A DNA stretch of 45,268 nt from Clostridiaceae bacterium (lineage in GTDB: Bacteria; Bacillota; Clostridia; Saccharofermentanales; DTU023), in NCBI GenBank assembly GCA_012841145.1, contig DUVH01000021.1, positions 1-45,268 of the forward strand, written 5' to 3'. The stretch's first letter is position 1. Every line of letters begins with the position of its first letter. Positions 26,200 to 33,472 of this stretch are shown here, piece after piece. The translations under genes were made by a program, and so were the position numbers. The notes under the pieces were generated by a model. It saw only the letters and a program-made list of their open reading frames with translations. It did no database searches and was not told where the DNA came from.

Positions 26200-26224
26200 T
26201 TCTCATTAATCAGGTAATACCGCC

Positions 26225-26434
26225 AAGCTGTCGAGCGACACAGCTTCGGAATTTATTAGTACCATCAAGCTGTTGAGTGACACAGTTTCGGAATTTATTA
26301 GTACCATCAAGCTGTCGAGCGACACAGCTTCGGAATTTATTAGTGCCATCAAGCTGTCGAACGACACAGCTTCGGAATATGTTAGTACCATCAAGCTGTT
26401 GAGCGACACAGCTTCGGAATTTGTTCGGTACGTA
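26225..26434 (+). repeat. Five tandem 42-bp hairpin repeats
   Basis: Units begin AAGCTGT at 26225, 26267, 26309, 26351 and 26393, exact period 42, with few substitutions. Each unit holds AAGCTGT...ACAGCTT, a 7-bp stem with 8-base loop. The array is open in more than one frame on both strands because 42 is divisible by three, but no start codon with ribosome binding site serves it on the plus strand. It fills the 356-bp gap before the CorC-like gene together with the hairpins upstream. Confidence 0.9.
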
Positions 26435-30543: not shown

Positions 30544-30885
30544 CGGGTACCGGGGGCCGAGCGTGCAGTCCAAAAATTCGATATTAACTGCAAAACTGAA
30601 CACCCCGGATACCGGGTGCCGGACGTACAGTCCAAAAATTCGATATTAACTGCAAAATTGAACACACCGGATACAGGATTCCGAGCGTACAGTCCAGAAA
30701 TTCGATATTAACTGCAAAACTGAACACACCGGATACCGGGTGCCGAGCGTACAGTCCAGAAATTCGATATTAACTGCAAAACTGAACACACCGGATACCG
30801 GGTGCCGAGCGTACAGTCCAGAAATTCGAAATTAATTGAAAAATCGCACACCCCGGGTGCGGGGGTGCCGGGCGACGGCTGCAGG
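30544..30885 (+). repeat. Tandem array of five 62-bp repeats plus a diverged sixth
   Basis: Units begin CGGRTACCGG/CGGATACAGG at 30544, 30606, 30668, 30730 and 30792; a diverged unit starts at 30854. Conserved parts are CAGTCCARAAATTCGATATT and ACTGCAAAACTGAACAC. 62 is not a multiple of three and the frame changes each unit, so it is noncoding. Within units TGCAGT/ACTGCA can pair. It lies in the 785-bp region between the convergent foldase and gatD genes; 30886-31088 shows nothing recognisable. Confidence 0.9.
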
Positions 30886-31088: not shown

Positions 31089-31790
31089 TCAGAGAGAGAA
31101 TGATTTGCGGAAACCTTTTATTCGCACGTCATACGCTCCGAGAAGCGCTTCTTCGAAGGGGAGTTGTCCGTCAAAGCCGATGAGGGAGAAAAGCCACTTT
31201 GTAAAGTGCGGGTTGAGCATCAGGAACGGTCCGAGAAGCTCCGTCGCGAAGAAATGATTGTCGCGGATGCCTTCAATCCGACTTCCGGGAATTGTCCCGT
31301 CTCCATGTGTTAATTGGATAAACGCATATTTTTGTAAATTGCCACAGTGTGTCGTGAATTGCGAGCGAAAGCCCATTACGTCCGCAGACCGGAAGTTGCC
31401 GTAAATGATTTCATTTCTGCGCTCGTATCGATGACAGTATGTGTCGAAAGGAAAAAGACCGAGCGCTTCGATCGTTTTCCCTTCTTCGTACTCAATCGAT
31501 CGTCCGACGAGATCGAGTGCGTTGCCTGCAAAGAAGAACACTACGCCGCGGTCAATCGCATCTCTAAAGTCGCCGCTAAGTCCGCTCCATCGATCAAGGA
31601 CGAGTCTTTGCGACTGCTCCGTCATCGGTCCCATATAAACAAAATCGACGTCGCCTTTCATGAATGCAGGTCGCTCGGGGAAAGCCGTCCGGACAATCTT
31701 TGATTCGCCAAATGTCTGGGCGAGCAGATTCTGTGTGCCGTGTTCTCCGAGGAGATTCGCAAGTTCTCCATACAATATCTCAACTCTCAT
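31089..31790 (-). CDS. gatD: GatD-like glutamine amidotransferase subunit lacking catalytic Cys and His
   Basis: A 233-residue class I (CobB/CobQ-like) amidotransferase homologue, normally supplying ammonia to MurT for lipid II D-Glu amidation. Similarity to GatD is seen in the start VEILYGELANLLGEHG, IDRG before the elbow, EALGLFPFDT, and EGIRDNHFFATELLGPFLMLNP near the end. The nucleophile elbow, usually ICGGYQ, reads FFAGNALDLVG with A88 at the Cys position, and the usual LHGP reads LLGP with L186 at the His position. Glutamine hydrolysis is therefore not expected. The gene starts 4 bp after the murT stop, as in normal murT-gatD operons, and the frame is otherwise intact. Confidence 0.8.
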   Translation of the reverse strand: MRVEILYGELANLLGEHGTQNLLAQTFGESKIVRTAFPERPAFMKGDVDFVYMGPMTEQSQRLVLDRWSGLSGDFRDAIDRGVVFFFAGNALDLVGRSIEYEEGKTIEALGLFPFDTYCHRYERRNEIIYGNFRSADVMGFRSQFTTHCGNLQKYAFIQLTHGDGTIPGSRIEGIRDNHFFATELLGPFLMLNPHFTKWLFSLIGFDGQLPFEEALLGAYDVRIKGFRKSFSL

Positions 31791-31794
31791 GGAA

Positions 31795-33414
31795 TCACTC
31801 CTTTTTCAAGCGCTCATGGAGATGCTTCTCGCGTCTGGTGTTGTCCGTTTTGAGAGCCGTCTTTTCCAAGCGCTCATGGAGATGCTTGTCGCGTCTGGCG
31901 TTGTCCGTCTTGAGAGCCGTCTTTTCCAAGCGCTCATAGAGACGCTTCAGGACGATGCGTGAGATGGGTTCCGAGTAGAGTGAGTAGAGTATCGCGATCG
32001 TCTCCGGTTCCTCTTCAAAGAGTAACGCGTCGGCCGCATCGTGCCTGTCTCGTCGCGTCACAATTTTCCGGTCATCAACTCCCGCAAACAGGAGCGCTAG
32101 GCGAATATCTTCACAGCGATTGCCCGCGACGACCACGCGCGTGATGTCATCATCGTTTAGAAGGCCGAGGTCGGCGTCGAAAATCCATGCGGCATTATCT
32201 TCTGACGTGACCGTATCCGAACTCGTATCGACGAGCAGGATGAACTGCTTTTTCCCCGGTATGGCGTGGACGGCGCTCACCACGCGACTTACCGCGATAG
32301 GGTTTTTCCCTTTGGCGAGCATTCGATAGATACGTTTGTCGCCGACTTTGATTACTTCTCTGCGAGATTTGCCGATGACGATACCGGAGAGAGCCTCAGC
32401 GATCTCATCGCGCGTTCTGCCCGATGTTCTGAACAATGTGATGGCGGCGAGCTCGTTGTAGAGATCGAGGATATTCTCTCCGCGGAACGGGTAACGTTCC
32501 TCGCCGTCTTTCGTGTTGAGCGCGAGCATCTCGGTGTCCTGTAACTTGTTGATCGGCAACGCATCACGCGAGCCGTCAGCAAAGACCGCTTTCGTGTTGA
32601 GCGCGAGCGTATCGGCGTCCTGTAACTTGTTGATCGGCAATGCATCACGCGAGCCGGCCGCAAGAACCGCTGTGATCTCATAGTCCGGGATGAGCGAGTG
32701 CCATCCGCAAGCTTCACAACGCGATCGCCCGATATGGTGATACCGGATAAAAGAATCTGTCAGCGGGCCGTGGCAGCGAGGGCAGAGCACAACATCGCGT
32801 ATCTGACTTTCGGTGATCGCCTTCTCGCCGGGAAGGCGCGCAATGCCGAATGACGTATGCGACCGGCCGATAGCCAAATTCTGCGACAAAAGGTCGTCGG
32901 CATTAACGATGACGTGCGTGCCGGCAGGAATGCTCTCATTTAATAGGTTATAGATAAACTCGCCGTGGCCGTTTCTCAAATAAGATTCACGGAAGAGATT
33001 CGTGACGATGAGGTAATCGGGATGAACCGCTCTAAATATGATGCGCGTCAGCCGCTCGTCAATTTCGAGGATGGCGAGCGGGAGTTTCTTTTTTCCTGTC
33101 AAGGTGGTCGCGTCGAGGAGCGTTGTGATGATGCCCTCTTCGATATTGCTCCCGTACGCGTTGTGCGCAAACGTCAACCCGAGAGTTCTCGCCAGATCGG
33201 CGACCATGTTGGCAACCGTCGTTTTGCCGTTCGTCCCCGTGACAGCGATGATCTTGTCAGGTTTTTCGATACGCATGAGAAAATCGGGGCACAGCTTCTT
33301 GGCAAGCTGTCCGGGAAAGTGAGTTCCTTTCAGACGTAAGAGCTTCATAAAGACTCGCGTCGCCCGCACAAACAGGATTGACGCGATAAAACGGATGGAA
33401 CGTCGCGATTTCAC
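31795..33414 (-). CDS. murT: MurT-like Mur-ligase subunit (lipid II isoglutaminyl synthase) with tandem repeat insertions
   Basis: A Mur-ligase-like protein that with GatD amidates D-Glu of lipid II. Seen: RGTHFPG-type start (LKGTHFPGQLAKKLCPDFL), P-loop VTGTNGKTTVANM, zinc ribbon CPRC...CEAC, and WIFDADLG near the C-terminal catalytic Asp. At 539 residues it is about 100 longer than usual: an 81-bp in-frame duplication follows the zinc ribbon (27 residues twice, with RDALPINKLQD) and a 60-bp one makes up the C-terminus (HERLEKTALKTDN twice plus a partial). GTG 33414 behind GGGAGAG is chosen; the longer ATG start would overlap the rpoB promoter. Divergent from rpoB. Confidence 0.88.
   Translation of the reverse strand: MKSRRSIRFIASILFVRATRVFMKLLRLKGTHFPGQLAKKLCPDFLMRIEKPDKIIAVTGTNGKTTVANMVADLARTLGLTFAHNAYGSNIEEGIITTLLDATTLTGKKKLPLAILEIDERLTRIIFRAVHPDYLIVTNLFRESYLRNGHGEFIYNLLNESIPAGTHVIVNADDLLSQNLAIGRSHTSFGIARLPGEKAITESQIRDVVLCPRCHGPLTDSFIRYHHIGRSRCEACGWHSLIPDYEITAVLAAGSRDALPINKLQDADTLALNTKAVFADGSRDALPINKLQDTEMLALNTKDGEERYPFRGENILDLYNELAAITLFRTSGRTRDEIAEALSGIVIGKSRREVIKVGDKRIYRMLAKGKNPIAVSRVVSAVHAIPGKKQFILLVDTSSDTVTSEDNAAWIFDADLGLLNDDDITRVVVAGNRCEDIRLALLFAGVDDRKIVTRRDRHDAADALLFEEEPETIAILYSLYSEPISRIVLKRLYERLEKTALKTDNARRDKHLHERLEKTALKTDNTRREKHLHERLKKE
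31801..31947 (-). repeat. 60-bp tandem repeats at the murT 3' end
   Basis: Units 31801-31860 and 31861-31920 differ at few bases, with a partial unit 31921-31947. They encode 20-residue charged helices (LHERLEKTALKTDN...) after the end of the conserved MurT domain. Confidence 0.95.
32509..32670 (-). repeat. 81-bp tandem duplication inside murT
   Basis: Units 32509-32589 and 32590-32670 encode AVxAxGSRDALPINKLQD followed by xxxLALNTK, 27 residues each. They lie between the zinc ribbon and the central domain continuation. Confidence 0.95.
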
Positions 33415-33443
33415 AAAAACTCTCCCAAAAAATAAAAAAGCTG

Positions 33444-33472
33444 TTGACTCGCAAGCCAAAGCGTGTTAGAAT
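33444..33472 (+). promoter_or_regulatory. Sigma-A promoter of rpoBC
   Basis: TTGACT (33444-33449), 17-bp spacer, TAGAAT (33467-33472): five of six matches in each hexamer. It lies 166 bp upstream of the rpoB ATG and overlaps the long-start alternative of murT. Confidence 0.75.

Follow-up and report, generated by a model that had tools for sequence, protein, structure and literature searches.

The murT-gatD locus

The window, that is, the whole stretch of 45,268 nucleotides that was analysed, carries a murT gene and a gatD-like gene side by side on its minus strand. Its closest known counterparts are the MurT-GatD pairs (lipid II isoglutaminyl synthase) of S. aureus, S. pneumoniae and S. pyogenes (PDB 6gs2, 6h5e, 7q8e, 6fqb, 9sq9 and 9sqj). 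The gatD-like gene (31089..31790, minus strand), a real frame of 233 codons with an ATG start, was assigned by sequence matches and a fold model as coding for a pseudo-glutaminase subunit of 233 aa. The murT gene (31795..33459, minus strand; sequence matches and model) is an ORF of 554 aa with a TTG start, and its true start probably lies downstream of this TTG. The murT stop codon and the gatD start are separated by a 4-base gap, and the two genes are also adjacent in relatives. The intergenic region downstream of gatD holds a repeat array with a 62-bp unit in 4.8 copies (30544-30843), and a second array in the window has a 42-bp unit (26224-26422).

The window ORF is a genuine though remote GatD. 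Its match to S. aureus GatD (5n9m/6gs2_A) is weak but consistent (28 bits), and hhalign aligned it to canonical GatDs with a probability of 99.9%. The AF2 model, built from 23 relatives, reached pLDDT 93.7 and pTM 0.92, and in the PDB it most resembled GatD chains, those of S. aureus, S. pyogenes and S. pneumoniae; 6gs2_A (S. aureus GatD) came first (TM 0.82, identity 20%), and the protein has a GatD-type class I glutaminase fold. The NCBIfam GatD models NF045636 and NF052463, which are narrow, gave 22.7 and 25.6 bits against cut-offs of 400 and 450. Pfam GATase_3 (PF07685) gave 18 bits, below its cut-off of 27, and matched 17 of the 23 relatives at E <= 0.01. The TM of 0.82 to 6gs2_A, the hhalign probability and the short gap to murT bear out the earlier note, made from the same DNA, in its statement that the fold signatures and the murT-gatD linkage are retained.

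Active site of GatD

The canonical Cys-His-Asp triad is spread over both subunits, two members on GatD and one on MurT, and all three are missing in the window. Pairwise and profile-profile alignments agree on both GatD positions. The column of the nucleophile Cys (C94 in S. aureus) at the nucleophile elbow holds Gly89 (codon GGC, 31524..31526, minus strand), as seen in FFFAGNALDLVG versus FLCVCGGYQLLG, and Leu186 of LLGP (codon CTC, 31233..31235, minus strand) stands where canonical GatD has its catalytic His (H189 of the HGP motif in S. aureus). The earlier note had placed the lost His correctly at L186. It had rightly reported loss of the Cys and had put it at A88, which is the residue before the Cys column; the correction to G89 does not alter the conclusion on the lost nucleophile. 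As it had asked, relatives were compared, and they share the loss: among the 73 non-canonical rows of the tree described below, none has His at column 186 and two have a stray Cys at column 89. These two, both of clade A, are the dead GatDs L046 and L049 of genomes G017 and G023, in which the nucleophile column again holds Cys while the His is missing. Since Cys and His are gone on GatD and the triad Asp is gone on MurT (N422), hydrolysis of glutamine is not expected, as had been proposed, and loss of the canonical glutaminase in this MurT-GatD pair is well supported.

Other pocket positions were kept or changed in a regular manner. Arg124 (31419..31421, minus strand) stands by alignment in the column of S. 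aureus R128, which sequesters glutamine (PMC5871853), and this column is Arg in 25/25 canonical, 42/45 clade A and 25/25 clade B rows. By column counts Glu58 (31617..31619, minus strand) is present in 70/70 rows of the dead clades A and B and is mostly Asp in canonical GatD. Leu14 (31749..31751, minus strand) aligns with Y30 of S. pneumoniae GatD, the Tyr serving there as plug of the ammonia channel (PMC6085368). In clades A and B the former active-site columns are more conserved than the other GatD columns (0 of 20000 permutations as low), which is suggestive only as a sign of a retained pocket role, many of these columns being also structural. The pocket could in principle bind glutamine or another amino acid uncleaved and gate MurT allosterically; near invariance of E58 and of R124, in the glutamine-sequestering column, and the conserved pocket would fit such a sensor, but both residues may be structural, and we regard this reading as improbable.

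It may also be asked whether a glutaminase was relocated, with C119 and either H17 or H148 replacing the lost dyad in the window's own subclade. By column counts Cys119 (31434..31436, minus strand) is invariant only in this 14-member subclade, where H17 is also found in 14/14 and H148 in 13/14 rows, and it lies five residues before R124. However, the other 31 clade A rows and clades B and C, all equally without the dyad, do not have C119; the residue is away from the nucleophile elbow, and Asn occupies the third triad position, so that we hold relocation to be highly doubtful. The earlier note had named an alternative Cys-His pair, for instance with C119 or C149, as what would overturn its view; such a pair is excluded for C149, which is not conserved among relatives, and for the family as a whole.

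MurT partner

The ligase partner is readily recognised. MurT of the window matched 7q8e_A with 145 bits, its model (pLDDT 86) had MurT chains as best PDB matches, and Pfam detected the Mur ligase middle domain (PF08245, 28.1 bits, cut-off 24) and the MurT_C domain (PF08353, 67 bits, cut-off 25). By alignment the P-loop TGTNGKTT (residues 74-81; 33217..33240, minus strand) and the Cys4 zinc ribbon CPxC...CxxC (C226, C229, C248 and C251; 32707..32784, minus strand) are intact. The P-loop, E132, D134, E135, R162 and the zinc Cys are invariant or nearly so and, like N105, are kept in all clades, so the ligase half would be expected to work. The gene also has two in-frame tandem duplications with periods of 60 and 81 bp (31801-31948 and 32508-32671); the first falls within the C-terminal helix, the second within a disordered linker (pLDDT < 50, residues 282-305).

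The third triad residue sits on MurT, D349 in S. aureus (Noldeke and colleagues, PMC6113224). In place of this Asp and its GRDxSW motif, the window MurT has by alignment Asn422 in EDNAAW (codon AAT, 32194..32196, minus strand). The column is Asn in 38/45 clade A rows, but every clade B row has Asp or Glu there; therefore the loss of Cys and His defines the dead group and the loss of Asp does not.

Other MurT residues are specific to the dead clades. Arg136 (33052..33054, minus strand), which adjoins the Mg-binding D134-E135, is Arg in 36/43 readable rows of clade A and 25/25 of clade B (61/68 together) and in 3/3 of clade C, and mostly Ala or Gly in canonical MurT. The segment N163-x-H165 is conserved in the dead clades, with His165 of RN[AG]H (32965..32967, minus strand) in 40/43 clade A and 25/25 clade B rows and Glu in canonical MurT; the equivalent loop in S. 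pneumoniae faces GatD and could form an ammonia path (PMC6085368). Moreover, the canonical DNAADGRD stretch and the KNP loop are replaced in dead pairs.

These changes raise the alternative of a donor switch, in which MurT would join an amino acid or another amine, not ammonia, to the D-Glu alpha-carboxyl, and the dead pocket with E58 and R124 would bind or position that amine. Ordinary Mur ligases use amino acids as substrates, and MurT is a member of this amino-acid ligase family. The gain of R136 by the Mg-binding pair and of N163-x-H165 in the GatD-facing loop, the replaced DNAADGRD and KNP segments and the extra conservation of the former active-site columns would all be consistent with it. 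On the other hand, the dead pair is found both with MurE of the DAP type (DNPR motif; G310, G463, G371, G045 and G048) and with other MurE motifs, which argues against a straightforward tie to any single type of wall, for instance type B. Type B peptidoglycan, in which an amino acid on the D-Glu alpha-carboxyl forms the cross-bridge, was for this reason rejected as a general explanation. A search of the literature found no link between MurT and type B walls, and the gene neighbourhood of dead pairs, viewed for substrate hints, had no recurrent neighbour with a wall function. On balance we consider a donor switch rather unlikely, though it is the chief competitor of the reading preferred below.

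Distribution, phylogeny and selection

MAGs of Clostridiaceae and Clostridiales make up the named relatives at 54-76% identity; three carry the name Mageeibacillus sp., a genus placed by NCBI in Clostridia, Oscillospiraceae. At least 30 of the 392 sampled genomes of the class have motif-confirmed dead pairs, namely 28 read among the 30 strongest matches plus G216 and G461. Dead pairs occur in families f1, f2, f4, f5, f11, f30, f31, f33, f36, f39, f44, f54, f57, f61 and f74, and the family and order of the window contain both dead and canonical pairs. Among 398 genomes sampled across the phylum, the strongest matches beyond the class all came from one family, f98, and turned out to be canonical, so that at this depth of sampling no dead type appeared beyond the class. 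Family f98 scored 129-154 bits with the dead profile in spite of its canonical motifs; classification by score alone was therefore rejected and motifs were read. Some genomes hold more than one dead pair: G017 has two in tandem, G432 (L148/L133) and G506 (L151/L134) each have two different ones, of clades A and C, and in G133 (L109/L110) one pair falls in clade A and the other in clade B. Fusion of murT and gatD to one ORF, with a canonical active site, was observed at L060:3340-5805 (822 aa, G019) and L064:3659-5869 (737 aa, G025).

A tree was made by a quick method from 98 concatenated MurT-GatD pairs with the active-site columns excluded, and it is unrooted. The 25 canonical pairs form a single clade (SH-aLRT 99) with Cys in 25/25 and His in 24/25; on the other side are clade A with 45 rows, the window among them, clade B with 25 rows and the small clade C with 3 rows. 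A separate partial loss was noticed in the canonical-clade GatD L162:4010-4747, which keeps the Cys and has Asp for the catalytic His (LDGP). Related families normally have Cys-His glutaminases, which makes a single old loss the natural reading of this unrooted tree. The earlier note had expected an effect in "this lineage", which is too narrow for an old split that is widespread in Clostridia.

Both murT and gatD are under purifying selection. Within the genus of the window gatD has a dN/dS of 0.05-0.19, and other dead pairs gave 0.04-0.12, with several dS values near saturation. Loss of all triad residues might be thought to reflect a decaying pseudogene pair or an assembly error, but the frames are open in dozens of genomes that are independent of each other, dN/dS is low and new motifs are conserved, which makes this hardly tenable, and decay at the level of the genus is ruled out by dN/dS and the tree.

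A canonical-GatD profile was run on 50 genomes, 47 with a dead pair and three canonical controls. The controls gave 320-361 bits. No canonical GatD was found in the 47 dead-pair genomes, where the dead gene itself scored highest, with at most 198 bits, and G402 had no match at all. Further matches there were second dead pairs or weak ones in long frames, mostly of about 500 residues, a length that we take to be typical of CobB/CobQ-type synthases. A hidden canonical GatD elsewhere was thus rejected for these genomes and for the window genome. Since no canonical GatD occurs alongside the dead pair in these genomes, the two kinds of pair replace each other, and with a dead GatD and no working copy the wall must be modified by some other means or from a different source of nitrogen. 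This strict alternation and the conserved N105, D134 and E135 favour the same role for both kinds, and they speak against the proposal that the complex acts on another carboxylate and no longer on lipid II. That proposal could draw on the remodelled MurT motifs, which are in a region proposed to contact the stem peptide (PMC6113224); we consider it very improbable.

Discussion

Our preferred reading, held tentatively and at somewhat less than an even chance, is that the complex would still modify the alpha-carboxyl of D-Glu in lipid II, that its nitrogen would come from free ammonia, and that GatD would be an obligatory scaffold. MurT would activate the D-Glu alpha-carboxyl in lipid II with ATP, and the activated D-Glu would be amidated with cytosolic ammonia instead of glutamine-derived ammonia. 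GatD would be retained since MurT is inactive without its partner, and its conserved pocket may now serve the interface, the entry of ammonia or the sensing of a ligand. Ammonia-rich digesters and guts, presumably the habitat of these MAG series, would be a fitting setting for such a system. In S. aureus, GatD C94G lost glutamine-dependent amidation and kept NH3-dependent amidation at pH 8.5, and MurT without GatD was inactive (Munch and colleagues, PMC3266927), while C94A and H189A GatD still formed the complex with MurT (PMC5871853). Human CPS1 keeps a glutaminase-like domain with Cys changed to Ser and takes ammonia from outside (PMC4655335). The C94G result together with the CPS1 precedent makes an ammonia-fed MurT with a scaffold GatD the most economical account. 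The earlier note had listed free ammonia, a scaffold role and a new substrate side by side; sequence does not settle the choice among them, and the first two in combination are favoured on precedent.

Several points count against this preferred reading. NH3 was not used at pH 7.5 in S. aureus (PMC3266927), and the severely reduced activity of S. aureus MurT D349N may also weigh against it, though this was a glutamine assay (PMC6113224). The new R136, N163 and H165 with the lost DNAADGRD appear to be more remodelling than simple glutaminase loss would need, and E58 and R124 are almost invariant although no glutamine hydrolysis is expected. The lack of NH3 use at pH 7.5 and the new MurT residues leave real room for a change of donor or a sensor role. 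It is conceivable, though unlikely, that Clostridia have a widespread second kind of MurT complex that ligates an amino acid or another amine, not ammonia, to the lipid II D-Glu alpha-carboxyl with GatD as amine-binding or regulatory subunit; if true, this would be a peptidoglycan-modifying enzyme that has gone unrecognised.

Pneumococcus cannot do without MurT-GatD, which is studied as a drug target. To our knowledge, all MurT-GatD complexes of known structure depend on glutamine. A GatD that is dead by nature and that many families of Clostridia keep instead of the active one makes it testable whether GatD does more than supply ammonia and how MurT reaches free ammonia or another amine. It likewise becomes testable whether a set of gut and digester bacteria has a wall chemistry that gene annotation would miscall as D-isoglutamine from glutamine.

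In the incomplete collection of open literature that was searched, no description of a dead GatD was found. The window pair shares with known MurT-GatD the gene pair and its order, the GatD fold, the MurT fold with zinc ribbon, the ATP and Mg residues and the Arg for glutamine sequestration. It differs in having no catalytic Cys, no His and no MurT Asp, in the oxyanion-loop motif (GPMTE for GGGQD), in SQFT for ENH-GRT, in the MurT loop (RES..RN(G/A)H for RDQLDRYGE), and in NCBIfam and Pfam GatD scores below cut-off. Like human CPS1 (PMC4655335), it keeps a dead class I glutaminase domain whose partner activates a carboxylate with ATP; ammonia comes from outside in CPS1 and is only proposed to do so here. 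Unlike the window pair, CPS1 is a fused polypeptide with a non-homologous synthetase side and has, in the human enzyme, Ser for the Cys. The laboratory changes GatD C94G and MurT D349N of S. aureus are the natural residues here (Gly89 and Asn422), whereas each of those mutants was engineered by one change to a complex that is canonical in all other respects (PMC3266927, PMC6113224). Finally, archaeal MurT-like proteins (pseudomurein) are likewise MurT-family ligases without a working glutaminase partner, but no GatD homologue was found there (PMC11915815), whereas GatD of the window is kept and conserved.
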